From NCBI GenBank assembly GCA_903915625.1, contig CAIWTN010000087.1:1-49615 (forward strand): a stretch of DNA of 49,615 nt, read 5' to 3'. Origin of the DNA: an uncultured Pseudomonadota bacterium (lineage in GTDB: Bacteria > Bdellovibrionota_B > Oligoflexia > Oligoflexales > CAIYRB01). How positions within the stretch are numbered: position 1 is the stretch's first letter; each line of letters starts with the position of its first letter. The notes below the pieces were generated by a model, which worked only from the letters and a program-made list of their open reading frames with translations, was not told where the DNA came from and did no database searches. The position numbers were made by a program, and so were the translations under genes. Of the stretch, positions 1 to 49,615 are shown one piece after another.

Positions 1-3000
1 CGCTTTCTGGGGAAGTTTTCGTTTATCCAGGAATAACTTACCCCATCTAGCAAAAGCAGCCGCTGGAGCGGGCTCTCAAGGGCCCGGATATCCTTTTTGA
101 GCCGCAGGTCCGAACCATTCCGGAACCCTGATGCGTCGACCCAACCGATTTGGGTGCCATTGGCATAGAACTTAAAAACCGAAGCGGAATTAAACCATAA
201 GACTGAACCCGAGATGCCGAGGCCGTAACTGCTGTTGGCGTTGCCACTATCGTAAAGCATTAGTTGATAACTGCTATAACTTCCTCCGGGACCATCGCTG
301 CTGACATTGTTGGCGATTGCTAATTTGGCGTTTGGGTTGGTCGTGCCGATTCCGACGTTGCCGCCACTAACTGCCATTGGGCTATTGCCTAGATCTGTCG
401 AGCTTGTCCACTTGGGTATGTAGGAAGCAGCACCCGAGCCTCCGCTTGAAACGGTCGTCTGCACTGCTGTGGCTGTACTGATGCAGTACTTGAGAGCCAT
501 GTTGCGTGGCCGCACCTGACCAGCGTAGGCATTGGATGCCGCAGACGTAACAGTGCTCCAGCCATACGAGCCGGACAACGTGACCACCTGCTCCCAGTTT
601 AATTGCGCACTCCCACTAGTGTAAAACATGTGGTTAACAGTCGTACCATTGGTTTCTACTGCATTATTGCCAGACCCTCCAATGGCGGTTACCGATGCTG
701 CCTGCGCACTACCAAACACCCGCCCACTATCCACACCGCGGCCGTTATCGAAGCCACGAACAAACTCACCACGCAAGTCCGGCAAGTTAAATGTCGTTGA
801 ACCATTACCCGCGCCAAAGGTAGTGCCAACAACACCGAAGAGCCCGGAGTAAGTAGTACGAGACACTGCAGATCCATCAGCTTCTATCCAGCCAGTGGGA
901 CATGTCGTAGCAGAAAATGGAGATACGATCCCTGCAGGTGTCACTGTGCTACCGGCGCTTCCCAGGAGGGTCCAAGCAGACCCATTATAGAACTCATGCA
1001 AGCCAATGGTTGTATTGTAAACTACCATTCCAGGAGTCGGGAAGGCGATGGCGTCACGTTGGGCTGTGGTCAAGCGTGGAGGTAGGAATCCGGACGACGT
1101 CGAATTGATGTCCAGCGCCGCGACGGGGCTAGTTGTCCCAATACCGACGTTGCCTATGTTATCGATTGCCAAAAGCGTCGAAAGACTGCCTATCGCGGTC
1201 GATCCGGCAGGCGCACGTTTGACACGCAGGCCATCAAAACCATTTGTACCTCCAGCCCCCAAAGTCATCATCCAGGTGGGTTGGGCCGCATCGTCTTGAA
1301 ACAACGAGTTACTGGTGTTGTCTGCAAGGCCGTTCACCGATAGTACGACCTGATGGACCGGATTGGGTGTGTCCATCGACGAAAGTCGACCGAAGCTTCC
1401 CCCGGGACTCTTCACTCCGAAATAAGTACGGGCGTGACTGTTGATTCGCGCCGCGCCGCTGCTGAGCTCGAGTTTTTCTCCAGGTGATGTAGTGCCTATC
1501 CCGATATTCCCTCCCGACAGCACAAGTTGATTTGTCCCCGCAACCAAGCCATTCGCCGGAAGGTTTAACACTCCGGTCATCGTTGAGCCCGCCACAGCGA
1601 CATAGTTCGCTGGCGTAAAGGTTGTCGCAATGTTGACGCTACCAGACCCATTGGTGATGGAAATCCCACTCCCGGCCGTCAACGTAGCTAGGGAATAGTT
1701 TATACCATTGCCAATGGCGATTTGGCCGTTTGAAGGAGCCGCAGTGAGCCCAGTACCGCCGTTCGCTACCCCTAGCGTGCCAGACGTAATTAGGGCTGCG
1801 CTATGAACCGGCAAATCCGTCGCTGTCAAAGCCCGAAGCGAAGGTGCGCCAGAAGACCCGTTAGGAGTAGCAAACATCAAATTCGCCGCACCCGTCGTTA
1901 CACCCGTACCGCCGTTGGCGACGGCAAGCGTTCCAGAGACTGCAGCGGCAGCGCCGAGGTTGACTGCACTAAAAATCGGTTGATTAGATCCGTTGACGGT
2001 CATGACTTGACCGGTGGTCCCAGTAACGCCCGAGAGAGCGCCAGCACCTGCTCCAATGACCACGCCATTATTGGTGATGGTCGAGGCACCCGTACCGCCG
2101 TTAGCGACGCTGAGAATACCGGACGTGATGATCGATGCGGATAGTGAGGGGATGTCTCCTGCTACGAGTGCAGATCCGGCCGTAACGCGGCCTTTGCTGT
2201 CGGTGACCACTTTGGCGTAGGTACCGGCCGTACCCACCGCAGCTAGTGTAGGACTAGGATAGTTACCAGTAAGATCACCAGAAGCAGCTCCCGATGGAGA
2301 CAGGCCAGATAACCACGATAGTGTGCCGTCACCATTCGTTGAAAGCACCTGACCACTGGTCCCGTCATTAGCCGGTAGTACCCAGGTTGTAGAGCCGGTG
2401 AGTGTATCGGGTGCTTTGAATGCTAGATAATTCGACGTTCCCTTGTCGTTGAGCACGATCTTACTAGCGTTTGTATTGTTGCCTTGGATGGTGACGTTCC
2501 CTTGCGAAGTTACATTAGTCGCAGTCAGTGCCCCGGTATTTGCAGTGCCCGTAGTGCTGATAATCGTCGAGCCACCAACAGTTGAGGCACCATTTATCGT
2601 GGCGGCAGAAAGAGTCTTATTTGTGAGCGTATCCGTGGTACTCCGACCTACCAGAGTGTCTGTCGTTGTTGGCAAGCTCAGTGTGCCCGTATTGACGATG
2701 GTACTTATCACCGGTGCCGCGATCGTTTTGTTGGTTAAGGTCTCGACGGCATCACGGGTAGCCACTACTCCTGAAGTTGGGAAGGTCGCAGTTGAGTTAA
2801 CGCCGGTACCGCCGTTCGCCGCGCTTAGGAGACCGCTAGATATCTTGCTCGCGTCGAGATTCGGAATATCGCTTGAGCTTAGCGAGCTACCACTTATCAC
2901 CTGACCCTGCGCATTGGTCTGGACTTTCATGTATGTGCCAGCAGTACCTACTGAGCTTAAACTTACTGTCGCTGTCCCACTTGTTGTTGAGACCGACACA

Positions 3001-4790
3001 CCAGTACCCGCGGTGACACCGCTAAGTTTGCCGCTGAAACTCGTATAGTCACTGTTGGATATCACGCCCGCTGTTACCCCGGCAGCCGAGGCCACCGGAA
3101 TATTTAGCGTATGCACCGATCCCGTAGAGCTAAAGAGTGGACTGTTACCACTTGTACCCGTAGCAAAAGATTGGGTACTTACCGTCAGTCCGTTTAAGTT
3201 CGTAAGCCCTGCGCCGGAAACTCCAAGTGCCTGCGCTGTACTTCCGGTCCAGTATTTAATTTGACTCGTGGAACTATTAAACCAAGTTTTACCTTTGTCA
3301 GGAGACAAAGCTCCTGTGCTATCCAAGGAGGTAACCAATGTTGCCTCAGACGTATTGTCAAATATGCCAAGTCCTAAGGTCTTAGCTGTATTTAATGTGA
3401 CGTTGCCAGCATTGGTGATTGCCTGGCCGTTCATGTTTAGGGTTCCGGTCATCGAATCGCCTGCTCTACTGAGCGGAGTAAAACCGAGAGCGTTTTGTTT
3501 ACTGTTGAATGTCGTCCAATCTGCAGAGCTCAAATACCCATTCGACGAGCCACTAGCCCGCGCCAGCAACAGCTGGCCAGAATTAGTATCGTAGGAAAGA
3601 GGAGCGGATGCAGATACCGAAGCGCGGGCCCGCGCATCCGTGTAGTAAAGATTGGTGCCGCTCTCCGCAACAACCGCTGTGGTCAGGCTTTGCCACGCCT
3701 TGGTTCCGGATAGAAACTGGGTCGATGTCCCGCCCGTCGGCAGCGCCGGTTCTTTGCCAGCCAGATTAGAACTCAGACCCGCAATCTTACTTTCAGCGAT
3801 GGCTGCACTAGGTGAAATATCATCGTTACTGATAAGCATCGCACTTTGCGCCGCGGTGATGCGTCCCGTGGCATCTACGGTGATGTTAGCGCGGGTATAA
3901 CTGCCTGGACTTACCGAGGTATTAGCTAGGCTGATCGTTCCACCGTTAGTAATAGGTCCACCGGTTAGACCGGTTCCCACATTAAAACTTACCGACGATA
4001 GCGGCGTAAATCCTAGCGCACCTGTGACATCCGCAGCAGCAAGTGACAGCCCCTGCGTCACCCGGCCCTGAGCATCGGTGACGACTTTGACGTAGGTTCC
4101 TGCAGTGCCGACATTCGGCAAGCTACCAGATCCAGATGTGGCGATATTTTGCGGCACCCACTGGCCGCCGATAAATTGCAACACCTGGCCAGAACTCGGC
4201 TGGGTACTAGCAATGTTTTGACCCTGCAAGGAAGTGACTGCGGGACTACCCCAAGTTAGGCGACCACTCGTATCTTTTGTCAAAAACTGATTATTAGCGG
4301 GCTGCCCATTAACAGCGAGGCCAAGGTTGCCATTGCTGTCGAAAGCGAGGGTTTTGCCGTCGACTGGGACGCGCAAGGCGTAGGGTACGAAACTATACTG
4401 CTGACGTGGGTAGGTTTTACCGGCAGCAGTGATTTCGATAAATACCGGACTAACGCCGTCGCCGAAGATTTGCTGAACCTGATCGGCGCTCAGTTCGAGT
4501 GGTAAGCTAAATACGCCACTATTCAGATCCACGGCGGTGAACTCGACCGGAGCAGTGAGAGTGTTACCACTTACAGCAGCGTTCCAAAACTTTACCGAGA
4601 TATCGACTGGCCCATCGACTGGAGCACCCGTCGGCTGCGTCAGGCGGCCGCTGTATGCCACCGAAAAAGGGGCTGCGTGAGCTTGCGAAAGAGAGACCAG
4701 GCTCGCCGCAAATGCCAAACTCAGCAGGCGTGATCGGGTGCCGAGTAGGACCCCCTTCGTGTACCAAGATTTTTGTTTAGAATGGGACAT
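1..4790 (-). CDS. Giant secreted phage-fibre-like adhesin with tail-collar and S74 chaperone domains (3' end outside window)
   Basis: One uninterrupted minus-strand frame begins at ATG 4790 and runs off the left edge, so about 1596 residues are visible and no stop is seen. Residues 1-39 look like a Sec signal peptide (basic start, hydrophobic stretch, AHA before AP). Residues about 40-1210 are low-complexity G/S/T/N-rich repeats with recurring 'NGGTG' and 'GTAGTY.KV.TD..G' units typical of trimeric fibre shafts. GIGTT head-repeat motifs lie near 1096, 1213 and 1477. A phage tail-collar module (CPTGWIEADG ... FNLPDLRGEFVRG) spans about 1285-1350. From about 1561 the LRLKKDIRAL start of a peptidase S74 intramolecular chaperone appears and is cut by the window edge. 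Such proteins trimerise and the S74 domain is normally autocleaved. The signal peptide and lack of neighbouring phage genes argue for a cell-surface adhesin rather than a prophage fibre. It resembles the mosaic adhesive trimer (MAT) proteins of Bdellovibrio; that link is inference. I checked the frame at several places and found no break. Confidence 0.88.
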   Translation of the reverse strand, partial: MSHSKQKSWYTKGVLLGTRSRLLSLAFAASLVSLSQAHAAPFSVAYSGRLTQPTGAPVDGPVDISVKFWNAAVSGNTLTAPVEFTAVDLNSGVFSLPLELSADQVQQIFGDGVSPVFIEITAAGKTYPRQQYSFVPYALRVPVDGKTLAFDSNGNLGLAVNGQPANNQFLTKDTSGRLTWGSPAVTSLQGQNIASTQPSSGQVLQFIGGQWVPQNIATSGSGSLPNVGTAGTYVKVVTDAQGRVTQGLSLAAADVTGALGFTPLSSVSFNVGTGLTGGPITNGGTISLANTSVSPGSYTRANITVDATGRITAAQSAMLISNDDISPSAAIAESKIAGLSSNLAGKEPALPTGGTSTQFLSGTKAWQSLTTAVVAESGTNLYYTDARARASVSASAPLSYDTNSGQLLLARASGSSNGYLSSADWTTFNSKQNALGFTPLSRAGDSMTGTLNMNGQAITNAGNVTLNTAKTLGLGIFDNTSEATLVTSLDSTGALSPDKGKTWFNSSTSQIKYWTGSTAQALGVSGAGLTNLNGLTVSTQSFATGTSGNSPLFSSTGSVHTLNIPVASAAGVTAGVISNSDYTSFSGKLSGVTAGTGVSVSTTSGTATVSLSSVGTAGTYMKVQTNAQGQVISGSSLSSSDIPNLDASKISSGLLSAANGGTGVNSTATFPTSGVVATRDAVETLTNKTIAAPVISTIVNTGTLSLPTTTDTLVGRSTTDTLTNKTLSAATINGASTVGGSTIISTTGTANTGALTATNVTSQGNVTIQGNNTNASKIVLNDKGTSNYLAFKAPDTLTGSTTWVLPANDGTSGQVLSTNGDGTLSWLSGLSPSGAASGDLTGNYPSPTLAAVGTAGTYAKVVTDSKGRVTAGSALVAGDIPSLSASIITSGILSVANGGTGASTITNNGVVIGAGAGALSGVTGTTGQVMTVNGSNQPIFSAVNLGAAAAVSGTLAVANGGTGVTTGAANLMFATPNGSSGAPSLRALTATDLPVHSAALITSGTLGVANGGTGLTAAPSNGQIAIGNGINYSLATLTAGSGISITNGSGSVNIATTFTPANYVAVAGSTMTGVLNLPANGLVAGTNQLVLSGGNIGIGTTSPGEKLELSSGAARINSHARTYFGVKSPGGSFGRLSSMDTPNPVHQVVLSVNGLADNTSNSLFQDDAAQPTWMMTLGAGGTNGFDGLRVKRAPAGSTAIGSLSTLLAIDNIGNVGIGTTSPVAALDINSTSSGFLPPRLTTAQRDAIAFPTPGMVVYNTTIGLHEFYNGSAWTLLGSAGSTVTPAGIVSPFSATTCPTGWIEADGSAVSRTTYSGLFGVVGTTFGAGNGSTTFNLPDLRGEFVRGFDNGRGVDSGRVFGSAQAASVTAIGGSGNNAVETNGTTVNHMFYTSGSAQLNWEQVVTLSGSYGWSTVTSAASNAYAGQVRPRNMALKYCISTATAVQTTVSSGGSGAASYIPKWTSSTDLGNSPMAVSGGNVGIGTTNPNAKLAIANNVSSDGPGGSYSSYQLMLYDSGNANSSYGLGISGSVLWFNSASVFKFYANGTQIGWVDASGFRNGSDLRLKKDIRALESPLQRLLLLDGVSYSWINENFPRK

Positions 4791-5201
4791 CAGCAGACCC
4801 AAGATTTGTTAACGGGGTACCTCCCCTGTTATCTATCTTGTCTGTTCGTCAACAAGATCCTAAAACTTAAGAAAAAAAGGTAATAATCCAATATTATTGG
4901 TATTCATGAGACGGTTCTTTGTAACGGAAAAGCCGCTTCCTTAGGTAAACAAAAAATACAATCATTACGGGCACATGCGAAGCCCTGATGATGGGGATGC
5001 GGCGAGCTCGTAATTTTTTTCTCCGCTCCGCTGCGCCTTCGGCCATCCCTATTCCCACGTCCTATCGACATTTGCAAAAGCCCAGGTTTGCCTGCAAATT
5101 CAGCAACAGGCCAAAAATCTCTAAAGATTTGTTCCGAATATGCCGAATTTCCGTAAGGCACAGGAAGCGATTGCTTCTTTACTTTCGGGAGAAAGAATGT
5201 T
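4791..5201. other. Divergent intergenic region between fibre gene and desaturase gene
   Basis: About 410 bases without a supportable gene. Besides the two repeats next to the fibre gene, it holds a perfect 13-base palindrome at 4888-4900 (CCAATA-T-TATTGG) inside an A/T-rich stretch that could carry the divergent promoters. At 5070-5099 there is a nested hairpin (ATTTG/CAAAT outside CAGG-TTTG-CCTG) in what would be the desaturase leader. Short frames here have no ribosome site or recognisable sequence. Confidence 0.4.
4811..4858 (-). promoter_or_regulatory. Paired inverted repeats upstream of the fibre gene
   Basis: Two inverted repeats sit 21-68 bases upstream of the fibre start. The inner one (4811-4830) pairs AACGGGG with CCCC-T-GTT around a five-base loop. 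The outer one (4835-4841 with 4852-4858) is ATCTTGT / ACAAGAT, a perfect 7-bp pair with 10 bases between. The outer pair has the geometry of a dimeric repressor site; the inner one could be a leader hairpin. I see no confident -35/-10 pair, so the promoter is not placed. There is no good Shine-Dalgarno sequence directly before the ATG. Confidence 0.35.
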
Positions 5202-14004: not shown

Positions 14005-16416
14005 CTACTGAAGCTGGCTGAGGCGTTCCTTGGCCAGATTCGAGTAAAAAAGATTGTTGCCGTCCTCACTCGCTTTCTTGAAAGATTCGATCGCTTCAGC
14101 ACGGCGGCCGGCGCGGTAAAGCAGAAGGCCACCTTTGTACAAAGCCTCGGCGCGGCCTTCCCAATTTTCGGCATCAGCACCCACCTGCGCCAGAAGGCGA
14201 CCAGCGTCTAAATACTGATTGGCTTTGCGGTAATCTTCAGCGAGGCTCGTGAGTTCAGATGCCCAGACTTTCTTGGCTGCCGCATCGTCGGCAAACTCTT
14301 TAGGCGTCATATATTTGAGTAGACTGATGGCCTGCTTACGCTCACTTGCCATGCCTAATTGGCCAAAACGTTTACCAAGATCTGTCAGCATTAAGACAGC
14401 GCTACCTGACGGGCTGAAATTACGCGTCCAGTCGGTGTTTTCACCGCCATTCTGGGTCGACTTTTTCGTCGTTAGGGCATCGGTCCAGTTACTGAGCACG
14501 ATCCTCGGACCAATGCGAATTTTGGCGGGGCTTTTAATCGTCTGCTCAAATGGCTCTTTATAGGCGACTGTGAGCTTAGCTTTTTCCTCTACACTTAGTC
14601 GGTCCCACGCCTGTTCCGCCGATTTGTCAGCATTACGACTTAGTGCTGCAAGAGTGCTAATGCGGCTCGGGTCGGCACCATTCTGCTTCGCTTCCTCTGC
14701 TCCCTCACCGGCAGTGACTGCCAGCCAAAAAGAGGCTTTAAAGCGGTCCGGACCTTCAGTGCTAGATTTTGCCGCTGCTGCGTATAGATCGATCGCTTTT
14801 GAACTCTGACCAAGCTTTCGGTACGCTTCGGCTAAAGACCAAGCAATTTTCGTCGATTGCTTTACCTTTTGCCGGGACTTTGGCAGTGACTCGAAGTCGT
14901 CTATAGCTTCGACCAATTTGCCAGACTCAATTTTTGACTGAAGATTCGCGTTAAGCTTAGCATCGAATCTTTGTTCCAGGTCGCTCTTATAGGGTTCAGC
15001 GCCACTACCGGTAAACCGCTTAAAATAGCCCTCAGCAAATTGTCCCGTTGAACGCTGCCATGCCGTATTTGGATTCAGCATGTCGCTCAGAAGCAAACTG
15101 GCCGTCAGAAAGGCCGTCCGCGAGCTTTCTACCACGGGGTAAGACGATACTAGTGCAGCATGAACTGGCCCGGTAAGTGCCGGCAATGCTTTTGCATCCG
15201 AACCCTTAGCAGTCGCTGTGGCAGCGCCCCACCAGGCCTGGCGCAGAGCAATTTGAGCTGCCAGCTCCCCGTTCTGACGTGGTTTGATCGTCGCAAGCGG
15301 CACTAAAAGTTTATTCAGTGCACCAACGTTTTCCGACTCAAGATTGCGAATAGCTGCAATGTCCAGCTTCCGAAGTTTAGCGAAGTCAGCTAGAGGGCTC
15401 TCAGGGTGCTTTTGCACTAAAGCGGCAAAATATCCGTCAGCCAGCGTCAGATTACCTTGACCGAGCTGCGCTTCCGCGAAACGCCATAAATGAAGAGCAT
15501 CGCGGTCGAATACACTATGGTCACGACGCAAAACCTGTTCGTAGGCGACGAGCGCTTTCGCTTCGTGACCCATATTAAATAGTTTTCCCGCATAGTCTGC
15601 CATGGCCTCGGCGGAGCTAAGGACCTGAGGTTGTGCCGTAGGTAGCTTGGGCCTTCGACTTAGACCTTCTTCGTAGGCAGCTGTCTTCAAGGCGTAAATA
15701 TAAGGAGGAAAGTCGCGCCATGCTTTGCCCGTTCCATCTTGGGCTTGCCGCATACCAGCACTTAGCTGTTCAGGAGTCACGAAGAGCTGGGAGGGTGGCG
15801 CCACCAGTAATTTGCGGCCAGAGGGATTTGGAGTTGGCGCAGTGGTTGACACAAAAGGGTCGGTCGATCCCGGGGCTACGAGCTTAAATTTGCTAGGCTC
15901 ATTTTGCTCAGGGCGAACCGCATTTGATTCGCTCCTGCTGCTATTAGTGCTCTCGGGGCTTGCGTTGCTACCACTTTCGGAGGCAATAGGCATCCCGGTG
16001 CTCGGGTCGCGTTCTTCGGTAAAATCAGCATCGTAAATATCTACCGCAACCCGAAATGGCTCTTTAAAAGTACTGACCAAGGCACGCACATCGCGGTCAC
16101 GCAGGATGAATTTAACCTCGGTACCGTAGGGACCCAGTTCTTTTATAATCGTTCTCTTAATCAATCGTTCATCGTACTGATCTAAAGCAGGCAGTTCGTT
16201 TGGGGCGGTCTTGTGGAAGGTCAATACCAAAGCATGGGCGCTCTTATCATAGCGCTGAGTCACTTCACGCTCAGTGGTGAATGGCAGAACTAGTTGCGTA
16301 TAGATTCCTGCAGCTAGGCCTTGAGTGGCGCTCATGACAGTCATCATGATGCCTACGGCAACCAGCGCAGCTCTGAAAATTTGAAGTGGCAGGGGCGATC
16401 GACGCATGGGCAGCAT
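14005..16416 (-). CDS. Secreted AMIN-like/TPR protein, first gene of the flagellar operon
   Basis: An 803-residue protein with a probable signal peptide (hydrophobic residues about 13-36, ending LAAG). Residues about 37-130 form a beta-rich region (VTQRYDKSAHALVLTFHKTA ... PFRVAVDIYDADF) resembling AMIN domains, which target peptidoglycan or secretin complexes. Next comes a Ser/Asn/Pro linker (about 135-200), then many TPR-like helix pairs up to the end (for example ALVAYEQVLRRDHSVFDRDA and YKGGLLLYRAGRRAEAIESF). It is probably periplasmic, so a role in anchoring or placing the flagellum in the wall is plausible, but nothing here proves it. It starts 34 bases after the expected start point of the sigma-54 promoter and ends 28 bases before the activator gene. 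The ribosome site is poor. Confidence 0.75.
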   Translation of the reverse strand: MLPMRRSPLPLQIFRAALVAVGIMMTVMSATQGLAAGIYTQLVLPFTTEREVTQRYDKSAHALVLTFHKTAPNELPALDQYDERLIKRTIIKELGPYGTEVKFILRDRDVRALVSTFKEPFRVAVDIYDADFTEERDPSTGMPIASESGSNASPESTNSSRSESNAVRPEQNEPSKFKLVAPGSTDPFVSTTAPTPNPSGRKLLVAPPSQLFVTPEQLSAGMRQAQDGTGKAWRDFPPYIYALKTAAYEEGLSRRPKLPTAQPQVLSSAEAMADYAGKLFNMGHEAKALVAYEQVLRRDHSVFDRDALHLWRFAEAQLGQGNLTLADGYFAALVQKHPESPLADFAKLRKLDIAAIRNLESENVGALNKLLVPLATIKPRQNGELAAQIALRQAWWGAATATAKGSDAKALPALTGPVHAALVSSYPVVESSRTAFLTASLLLSDMLNPNTAWQRSTGQFAEGYFKRFTGSGAEPYKSDLEQRFDAKLNANLQSKIESGKLVEAIDDFESLPKSRQKVKQSTKIAWSLAEAYRKLGQSSKAIDLYAAAAKSSTEGPDRFKASFWLAVTAGEGAEEAKQNGADPSRISTLAALSRNADKSAEQAWDRLSVEEKAKLTVAYKEPFEQTIKSPAKIRIGPRIVLSNWTDALTTKKSTQNGGENTDWTRNFSPSGSAVLMLTDLGKRFGQLGMASERKQAISLLKYMTPKEFADDAAAKKVWASELTSLAEDYRKANQYLDAGRLLAQVGADAENWEGRAEALYKGGLLLYRAGRRAEAIESFKKASEDGNNLFYSNLAKERLSQLQ

Positions 16417-16689
16417 TTGCTCGGTGAAAGGGGGAAATTGGGGAGGGGTCCCCTATATCAAGCAATTTATGTGCCAGGTTTGCCCACCGCCGGAAATCCG
16501 CCTGGGACGGGATTGCCGCTCTCACGACTGCCAAATAACCGCCACTATTAGGCGTCAAACTAGTGACAGCAACCGCCTTTTCTTGTCAGTATTTTGGCGG
16601 CTGTGGTACGACTTTTGGTACGGTGATGACAATCCACAGATAGCTTCAGTTGCCCAGGCAAGGGTCGCGATTAAAAAGGCGGCAAGATT
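16417..16689. other. Divergent promoter region, flagellar operon / hldE
   Basis: 273 bases. The left part holds the sigma-54 promoter of the flagellar operon. I see no convincing sigma-70 promoter for hldE in the right part. A TGGTACG-N4-TTGG string on the plus strand lacks the essential GC of a -12 element. Confidence 0.5.
16461..16476 (-). promoter_or_regulatory. Sigma-54 (-24/-12) promoter of the flagellar operon
   Basis: Read on the minus strand the site is TGGCACATAAATTGCT, matching the sigma-54 consensus TGGCAC-N5-TTGC with exact GG-N10-GC spacing and a preceding pyrimidine. The expected start point is near 16450, giving a leader of about 34 bases before ATG 16416. Placement directly ahead of an operon that encodes a sigma-54 activator strengthens the call. 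Confidence 0.88.
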
Positions 16690-18216
16690 ATGGATTCTAA
16701 GACTAACCCAGCGCCATCTATCCCTTGGCTAGTCGGCTCACGCCCGCCACGCATCGCCGTTGTGGGAGATGTCATTTTAGACGAATATCTTGACGGTCAA
16801 GTCAATCGCATCTCACCTGAAGCGCCAGTACCCGTACACCTAGTGACAAAAACCCTACACGGCGCCGGTGGCGCCGCCAATGCCGCGCGCAACATCAAAC
16901 TTGCCGGTGGCGATGTCATGCTACTCAGCGTCATAGGTACTGACGAGGCCGGCCGCAATTTACGTAATCTCCTGCAGCGAGATCAGATTGACACCTCTTA
17001 CCTGCAAGCCGTCAACGATCGACCAACGATCCGCAAAACGAGGATTACCTCCAGCAGCCACCAGCTAGTGCGTGTCGACTGGGAGCGCGTTCATCCGATC
17101 AGCCAAGACGTGCAGGATTGGATCATGAACGGCCTCAAATCTATTGAATTCGACGCCCTACTGATTAGCGACTATGGCAAAGGCACACTTCCGATCAGCC
17201 TGCTCAGCAATCTGCTAAATCTAGCCGTACAGCGTAAAGTACCGGCAGTAGTAGATCCAAAGGGCAGAGATTTCAGCAAGTACCTGCATGCTTCGCTAAT
17301 CACGCCCAATCGCAAGGAAGCATGCGATGCTCTCGGCTTAGATCCGGCAGAAGATCACTCCGGTGAAGAGTTAGGGAGGCGCCTGCAGAGTACCTTCGGC
17401 CTGCAAAATGTACTGGTGACTATGGGCCCTAAGGGAATGGTTCTGGTTCCCCAAGCTGGCAGCAAAGACACCAAAAATCCCATCGAATTGCCTGCTGTAG
17501 CGCGTGAAGTCTACGACGTTTCGGGAGCCGGTGATACCGTAGTGGCTGTTATGACCTTATGCCTGGCAGCGCGTGCCCCGATGATTGATGCCATGCACAT
17601 CGCCAACACAGCGGCGGCATTGGTGGTGGCTAAATGGGGGACCCAACCCATCCGTCTCGATGAATTAACCGAGGCACTACATCGGCATCCCGACGCCCCG
17701 ATCACCAAACCAGTCTTCAGCACACAAAATAAAATCTCAACTCGAGAAGCTGTTCGGCATCAGATCAGTGATCCTAGCCTTCGCCATAAAAAAGTTGTTT
17801 TCACCAATGGTTGTTTCGACATCCTGCACGGTGGCCACGTGGCTTATCTCGAGAAGGCACGTTCGCTGGGCGATCTGCTCGTAGTCGGTGTGAATACCGA
17901 CGAGTCGGTACGCGCTCTGAAAGGAGCCCCAAGGCCTTACGTTACAGCAAGCGACCGCATGCGCCTTCTCGCGGCCCTAGCCTGCGTCGACTTTGTGGTT
18001 CCATTTGGTGAAAGCACCCCGCTAGACCTCATTACAGCTTTGGCTCCCGATGTCCTAGTGAAAGGAGCTGACTACGATAAAGACGCTCCCGCCACGTCGG
18101 CAAAAGCCATAGTCGGAGCCGATGTCGTTCGCGCGCACGGCGGTACGGTTGAAGCAATTGAGCTTGTCCCCGGCCTATCGACCACAGCTTTGGTAGATCG
18201 CATCAGAGGGCATTAG
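16690..18216 (+). CDS. hldE: Bifunctional heptose 7-phosphate kinase / heptose 1-phosphate adenylyltransferase HldE
   Basis: A 508-residue cytoplasmic fusion enzyme of ADP-heptose synthesis for the lipopolysaccharide inner core. The N-terminal ribokinase-like domain (about 15-330) has GDVILDEYLDGQVNRISPEA, a Gly-rich GAGGAANAARN and the catalytic DVSGAGDT motif. The C-terminal nucleotidyltransferase domain (about 360-508) has FTNGCFDILHGGHV with its HxGH-type active site (HGGH) and GVNTDESVRALKG. Both halves look intact and the length is usual. The start is ATG 16690 with a weak AAGGCGG site. It implies a heptose-containing outer membrane. Confidence 0.96.
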   Translation: MDSKTNPAPSIPWLVGSRPPRIAVVGDVILDEYLDGQVNRISPEAPVPVHLVTKTLHGAGGAANAARNIKLAGGDVMLLSVIGTDEAGRNLRNLLQRDQIDTSYLQAVNDRPTIRKTRITSSSHQLVRVDWERVHPISQDVQDWIMNGLKSIEFDALLISDYGKGTLPISLLSNLLNLAVQRKVPAVVDPKGRDFSKYLHASLITPNRKEACDALGLDPAEDHSGEELGRRLQSTFGLQNVLVTMGPKGMVLVPQAGSKDTKNPIELPAVAREVYDVSGAGDTVVAVMTLCLAARAPMIDAMHIANTAAALVVAKWGTQPIRLDELTEALHRHPDAPITKPVFSTQNKISTREAVRHQISDPSLRHKKVVFTNGCFDILHGGHVAYLEKARSLGDLLVVGVNTDESVRALKGAPRPYVTASDRMRLLAALACVDFVVPFGESTPLDLITALAPDVLVKGADYDKDAPATSAKAIVGADVVRAHGGTVEAIELVPGLSTTALVDRIRGH

Positions 18217-49429: not shown

Positions 49430-49615
49430 TGGCGGAGGCGGCGGGAGTCGAACCCGCGTCCGAATACGAGACGTAAAGAGCGACTACATGCTTATTCCGT
49501 TAATTGTCCTCTTACGAAGTGAGCCAACGGACAGGCTTACTTCATCGCAGCCTGATTGTCGTCATGCCGTGGTCTCCAGACGTAAGACCCTGACACCAAG
49601 TCGGATTTATTGCGC
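49430..49615 (-). ncRNA. ssrA: Transfer-messenger RNA (ssrA), 3' part
   Basis: The minus strand shows the conserved tmRNA 3' end: an AAGCATGTAGT motif, then GGACGCGGGTTCGACTCCCG forming the T arm, the 3' acceptor strand CGCCTCC and an encoded CCA at 49432-49430. U70 of the G3-U70 alanine identity pair is present. Upstream, complementary stretches fit pseudoknot 4. The resume codon, tag frame and 5' acceptor half lie beyond the window, since a normal tag stop is about 240 bases from the 3' end and only 186 are visible. tmRNA rescues stalled ribosomes and tags the unfinished protein. Confidence 0.94.

Follow-up and report, generated by a model that had tools for sequence, protein, structure and literature searches.

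THE FIBRE GENE AND ITS NEIGHBOURS

The window analysed here, a stretch of 49,615 nucleotides, spans contig C87 from end to end, in a 4.42-Mb genome assembled in 252 contigs. Its first 5 kb hold a single long gene for a fibre protein, read on the minus strand, followed by a desaturase gene and a run of flagellar genes. The features assigned in this part of the window are as follows.

3..4790, minus strand: fibre gene, a single open frame (1596 codons if started at the ATG) which the contig end cuts off at the 3′ side
4674..4790, minus strand: signal peptide (MSHSKQ...SQAHA↓AP), with n-, h-, and c-regions and an AXA-like cleavage site, read from the sequence
4317..4673, minus strand: N-terminal base domain of 119 aa, MAT-like, with 36 copies in the genome, assigned by an hhalign match with the MAT N-terminal domain of HD100 type
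939..4316, minus strand: shaft of low-complexity Thr/Ser/Gly/Ala repeats (GGTG, TLTNKT, VGTAGTY, and two GIGTT units), assigned by motif positions
489..938, minus strand: phage-type collar/receptor-binding tip module, assigned by Pfam Collar, PHROG, and PDB profile matches
3..113, minus strand: start of an S74 intramolecular chaperone (SDLRLKKDI..., with the SDxxxK motif), assigned by Pfam and cut by the contig end
5202..11632: neighbours outside the system, a fatty-acid desaturase (plus strand), and an MgtE_N-domain (MotE-like) protein, fliJ, fliI, fliH, and fliF (minus strand), assigned by Pfam

The fibre frame may start at the ATG at 4790, or at a TTG at 4802 (window 3-4802, minus strand), which gives 1600 codons. 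Residue numbers used here refer to the 1600-codon frame, and 4 has to be subtracted for the ATG start. No internal stop codon is present over the whole 1596 or 1600 codons, and when the bases of the gene were shuffled 200 times, no frame exceeded 252 codons, vs the actual 1596. The preliminary description, which had reported one frame of at least 1596 codons with these coordinates and features, is correct within the limit that the contig ends inside the S74 domain. Since the window is the entire contig, the end of the S74 domain and the stop codon of the fibre are absent from the assembly. An end-overlap search found no full copy of the last 400 bases elsewhere in the genome, so the left edge could not be extended in this way, and the same locus of a sister genome (L074/G027) was used instead. 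Reading past the left edge, as had been proposed, thus gave no overlap within the genome, while the sister genome continues there, with two genes that lack a PHROG match.

The nearest FliI among the named genomes scanned is that of a sediment MAG from Lac Pavin (98% identity), followed by Pseudobacteriovorax and Oligoflexales MAGs. On this sequence evidence the host is an uncultured Oligoflexales bacterium, represented by a MAG, of the class Oligoflexia, phylum Bdellovibrionota, and the earlier supposition that it is a relative of Bdellovibrio holds. Members of Oligoflexia may be predatory; for Oligoflexus itself this is unconfirmed (2023 review, PMC10385382).

Beyond fliF, the window contains metabolic and chemotaxis genes. 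The sister genome has the six neighbour genes in identical order, with proteins 87–98.5% identical. At the right contig end, positions 49480-49615 read like a minus-strand tmRNA of which only the 3′ part is left; ARAGORN reported no tmRNA at these positions, as expected for a cut gene.

A phage-like fibre in a bacterial contig may be the tail-fibre gene of a prophage or of a prophage remnant. Collar and shaft do match phage tail-fibre families, and the tips look phage-derived. This origin is nevertheless very improbable and was rejected: the protein has a signal peptide, dozens of genes carry the same base domain, and no phage structural genes occur among the scanned window proteins, which are flagellar, chemotaxis, and metabolic, or in the left flank of the sister genome, where the two genes lying beyond the fibre have no PHROG match. 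The view that the fibre is chromosomal and has no phage gene nearby, put forward in the preliminary description, therefore stands as far as the DNA can be read.

DOMAINS OF THE FIBRE

The N-terminus has, by eye, the typical appearance of a Sec signal peptide, as first described, with a basic KQKSWYTKGVLLGTRSR, a hydrophobic LLSLAFAASLVSLSQ, and the cleavage site AHA↓AP. In the paralogue N-termini compared, the hydrophobic leader is kept and its sequence is variable, as judged by eye. The base domain that follows is predicted by AlphaFold to be beta-rich (pLDDT 75). Its model has no solved fold in PDB at E ≤ 0.001, in agreement with the MAT paper (PMC10769870).

The shaft is common to the paralogues at approximately 40–80% aa identity. 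The GIGTT motif occurs three times in the fibre, at residues 1101, 1220, and 1484. GC content is even along the gene. A search of the protein in NCBIfam gave 0 matches, and PHROG matches are to tail and collar fibre families, reaching E 2e-41 for the collar module. Pfam Collar (PF07484) is found at residues 1291-1348 over profile positions 1-57 of 57 (E 1e-20, 73.8 bits vs a cut-off of 24). In PDB, the collar profile matches gp12 of T4 and other short tail fibres (E 9e-16 to 2e-9). The AlphaFold monomer model of the collar tip is poor (pLDDT 60) and unfit for structure search.

C-terminal to the collar, SDLRLK is found at residue 1564. Pfam Peptidase_S74 matches residues 1564-1596 with 24.1 bits (cut-off 22), over profile positions 1-34 of 58 only. 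This start aligns with the S74 domains of HD100 MATs and of six paralogues. Shaft repeats, GIGTT repeats, collar, and S74 start, all named in the preliminary description, agree in motif positions and Pfam. An absent or disrupted S74 domain was to speak against that description; the first 34 of 58 positions, with SDxxxK, are present, and the remainder lies beyond the contig end.

Two groups of known proteins are similar to this C-terminal part. Phage short tail fibres such as T4 gp12 share the collar domain family and a probable trimeric receptor-binding role, whereas the window fibre is predicted to be exported from the cell, and is fused to a bacterial base and an S74 end, outside any virion. 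Endosialidase-type S74 chaperones (K1F endosialidase, the T5 L-shaped fibre, and Bd3182) share the domain start and the catalytic Ser-Asp...Lys motif, but the window S74 lacks the distal part because of the contig end.

THE BASE-DOMAIN FAMILY

The base domain has 36 matches in the window's genome, and 47, 24, 20, 11, and 6 matches in five congeners. In the rest of the same GTDB phylum it was found in only 2 of the 34 other genomes searched. Further matches come from the Sulfidibacter phylum (Acidobacteriota; 36 of 297 genomes) and the Geobacter phylum (8 of 297 genomes), and some Acidobacteriota score better than HD100. Given this distribution, the domain does not mark predators. The window's genome and its congeners are MAGs assembled in many pieces, in which contig ends truncate a large part of the paralogues. 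For example, three ORFs of about 167 aa might be taken for small proteins that consist of the base alone; this was rejected, as all three run into contig ends.

Some fibre ORFs with the same base domain are giant: 12,484 aa on G026:C20 (L289-L290), at least 15,051 aa on G026:C18 (L291-L293), and at least 9,464 aa on G027:C24 (L294-L295). If the assemblies are right, these are among the longest bacterial frames.

Base-domain matches were found also in IMG/VR contigs (L330-L336), with 45–47% identity in the base. In three of these loci, inspected by eye, the fibre lies amid toxin-antitoxin-like and integrase-like ORFs, and no phage structural genes were obvious; a viral origin was set aside on this ground. 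The contigs look like mis-binned cellular or mobile DNA that was called viral because of the fibre.

RELATION TO THE MAT FIBRES OF BDELLOVIBRIO

Mosaic adhesive trimers (MATs) are a recent answer to the question of how Bdellovibrio recognises varied prey. Genome G111 was taken as the reference for B. bacteriovorus HD100. Profile A2, made of Bdellovibrio-type N-terminal domains, finds 20 confident base-domain copies in it (21 MATs are published, PMC10769870), and two solved MAT tips, 8OML and 8OKS, form the exact ends of two of its ORFs; both findings verify the choice of the reference.

The window base family aligns by hhalign with the HD100-type MAT N-terminal domain over the first half (prob. 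91.7, E 8e-7), with 27% identity over the aligned half. A bridge profile, built from an intermediate set of base domains from other Bdellovibrionota genomes, gives links of prob. 99.5 (E 1e-22) and 97.3 (E 2e-11), whereas column-shuffled controls (30 per pair) stay at prob. ≤6.6. The window-family profile A1 itself matches HD100 at E about 0.01. On the hhalign and bridge links, and on the S74 alignment with HD100 MATs, the window fibre is called a distant homologue in a wider MAT-like family, and the designation as a MAT-like mosaic surface fibre is supported. The relation to MATs suggested in the preliminary description is thus borne out for the N-terminal domain by hhalign, bridge, and shuffles.

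Like the HD100 MATs (PMC10769870), the window fibre has a signal peptide (by inspection), followed directly by a homologous beta-rich N-terminal domain (about 130 aa in MATs), which is distant in sequence and not exclusive to MATs, and then by a long shaft. Both are members of multigene families with a conserved end and a diversified end with swapped tips. In HD100, some members end in S74 with SDxxxK and the rest in other adhesive tips; in the window, the C-terminus has the collar and the S74 start, cut by the contig. The two families differ in that the base of the window family is only distantly related, and in that the window family includes members of more than 12,000 aa in a congener, and DGRs on some members. 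The window fibre has a collar tip, and the word "collar" is absent from the MAT paper (PMC10769870). The families also differ in size, with about 36 members in the window's genome vs 21 MATs in HD100. A MAT-like architecture with a homologous base is thereby placed in an Oligoflexales genus, where it is expanded to up to 47 copies and coupled in some members to DGRs.

MOSAIC TIPS

The diversity of the family lies in its C-termini. BLAST clustering was applied to 41 fibres whose 3′ end is closed, taken from three genomes: all N-termini fell into a single cluster, but the last 150 residues were split among 22, mostly singletons, so the family is mosaic. Pfam tips were surveyed in 44 fibre ends (alignment A3), a set which partly overlaps the former. 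S74 was found in 6 of these, Collar in 2, FGE-sulfatase in 2, and Shufflon_N in 2, and Fibrinogen_C, Gp34_trimer, CTHRC1_C, a glycine-rich tip, and a weak H-type lectin (H_lectin) were found once each, with the same kind of base under all of them. Shufflon_N is the constant region of PilV shufflon adhesins, and its two occurrences suggest another switching-type adhesin module. The variable element had been expected to be the collar, beside a conserved S74 domain. Fibre ends are indeed variable, but the whole tip is exchanged across the family.

The same locus in the sister genome offers a direct comparison. The flanks are kept, the base is 72% identical (aa) over 260 residues and the proximal shaft 58% over 620, and collar and S74 are absent from the same-locus fibre. 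After 1173 codons the frame of this fibre reaches a stop, beyond which other frames encode a different end that includes a short direct duplication. Either the tip has been exchanged, or the end is damaged or misassembled; since the ORF is interrupted near its end, faulty assembly could account for some of the tip difference. By eye the sister tip looked TNF/C1q-like, which is not claimed, as Pfam gave no match. Frame-shifted short tails were also seen after GNVG or Gly-rich repeats in other family members (L297:58-, L267:137+, L263:8512+, and L284:132+), and could be due to slippage or phase variation in the repeats, or to assembly error.

The same doubt can be raised for the window gene, which could be an assembly chimera of two paralogues with an artificial join between base and collar. 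There are 36 similar genes in MAG data, and an exact stretch of 68 nt (fibre nt 2098-2165) is common to the window fibre and a paralogue on contig C49. This stretch is, however, the sole exact match longer than 45 nt among the paralogue loci compared, and C49 continues unbroken through it and then diverges, which implies that the assembler kept the two apart. With the even GC along the gene, a chimera is improbable.

DIVERSITY-GENERATING RETROELEMENTS ON PARALOGUES

No DGR is associated with the window fibre, whose tip is a collar. Family fibres with a C-type-lectin-like (FGE-sulfatase) tip adjoin reverse transcriptases, and one of them is in the window's genome. The DGR loci are as follows.

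G000:C113:14287-17001 (L325, L051), minus strand: DGR of the window's genome, with TR 14287-14398, RT 14459-15433, Avd 15393-15893, HTH 15811-16536, and VR 16890-17001
G000:C113:16879-20013, minus strand: fibre of this DGR, with FGE-sulfatase tip and 5′ end cut by the contig end
G027:C25:4000-11558 (L300, L327): orthologous DGR of the sister genome, with a fibre having a complete MAT-like base domain
G026:C41:18630-26078 (L323, L272): DGR in inverted orientation, with a fibre having a full MAT-like N-terminal domain

On G000:C113, the gene order on the minus strand is fibre, HTH protein, Avd, RT, and TR. VR and TR are 112 bp long and have 11 mismatches, 11 of 11 at template adenines (chance 8e-9). 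The RT has the motifs IPIGNLSSQ (SQ motif) and YMDD, and the accessory protein matches Avd in PHROG (E 1.5e-13). This paralogue thus combines a VR in a C-type-lectin-type tip, a TR, Avd, an RT with SQ motif, and adenine-only mismatches. The same pattern is found on G027:C25 (10 of 10 mismatches at template adenines, chance 6e-8) and on G026:C41 (16 of 16, chance 3e-13). Two distinct types of IMG/VR contigs, with a base 46–47% identical, have an equivalent VR/TR pattern, with one non-adenine mismatch each at the edge of the match.

Among DGR targets that have a C-type lectin fold, Mtd is the phage archetype. Cellular DGR targets with this fold are known (Roux et al., 2021, PMC8144416), and the paralogues resemble them in the CLec/FGE-type tip with VR, and in TR, Avd, and RT; they are unlike the known C-type-lectin targets in that the variable domain sits at the tip of a MAT-like fibre. 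In the MAT paper, DGRs appear in a reference title only (PMC10769870). In a search that left subscription papers and preprints aside, no literature link of DGRs with Bdellovibrio or Oligoflexia fibres was found, and no report of DGR-diversified MAT-like fibres.

PROPOSED FUNCTION

The window gene very probably encodes a Sec-exported surface fibre, likely trimeric and with a glycan-type ligand, which is one of a repertoire of about 36 members; this reading is derived from domain content and known families. The signal peptide would direct Sec export, as in known families. Together with the signal peptide, the conserved base domain suggests that the N-terminus holds the fibre at the cell surface, from which the repetitive shaft would project it outward. 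The phage-type collar tip may bind a ligand, probably a surface glycan, as is expected of the collar family. The C-terminal S74 domain, a chaperone used once, would bring about trimerisation and afterwards cleave itself off at the Ser-Asp motif. Since about 36 paralogues combine one base with different tips, the cell would display a repertoire, which has probably become diverse through the swapping of C-terminal tips among fibre genes and, where the tip is C-type-lectin-like, through DGR mutagenesis as well. A surface adhesin repertoire is the best reading of the overall function. The incomplete S74 domain of the window, the only distant relation of the base to MATs, and the poor monomer model of the collar count against it, as do the interrupted fibre frame of the sister genome and the fragmentation of the MAGs.

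Within this reading, the targets of the repertoire may differ. The fibre might be a general environmental adhesin for particles, algae, or biofilm, unlinked to predation, for which the chance is just short of even. In its favour, the base domain extends to phyla that are not known to be predatory, and the nearest MAG is from freshwater sediment. The size of the repertoire, its divergence, and the DGRs, on the other hand, suggest varied biological targets and not one substrate. In a narrower version of the adhesin reading, the fibre would be a prey-recognition fibre of a predatory bacterium, used in attachment or invasion as Bdellovibrio MATs are. The phylum, the base-domain homology to MATs, and the close resemblance of the S74 domain to that of HD100 MATs point in this direction, as does the large repertoire of tips, which is expected for diverse prey. 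Against it, predation by Oligoflexia is unconfirmed (PMC10385382), the base domain reaches into Acidobacteriota and a small number of Geobacter-phylum genomes, and the same protein would be needed for adhesion to surfaces, algae, kin, or particles. Prey recognition is a tenable reading that falls somewhat below an even chance, and prey as the target is a guess. An easy inference is corrected here: as phyla without known predation have the base domain too, its presence identifies no predator.

A surface adhesin repertoire of this kind might go further, in that the lineage would run adaptive recognition, with tens of MAT-like fibres, some of more than 12,000 residues, continually re-tooled by tip swapping and by retroelement hypermutation of lectin-like tips and tracking changing prey surfaces; this is a tentative and rather unlikely extension. 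In the DGR shared by the sister genomes, the templates differ at 1 base and the VRs at 13, 12 of which are template adenines, which makes targeted diversification of MAT-like fibres directly testable.
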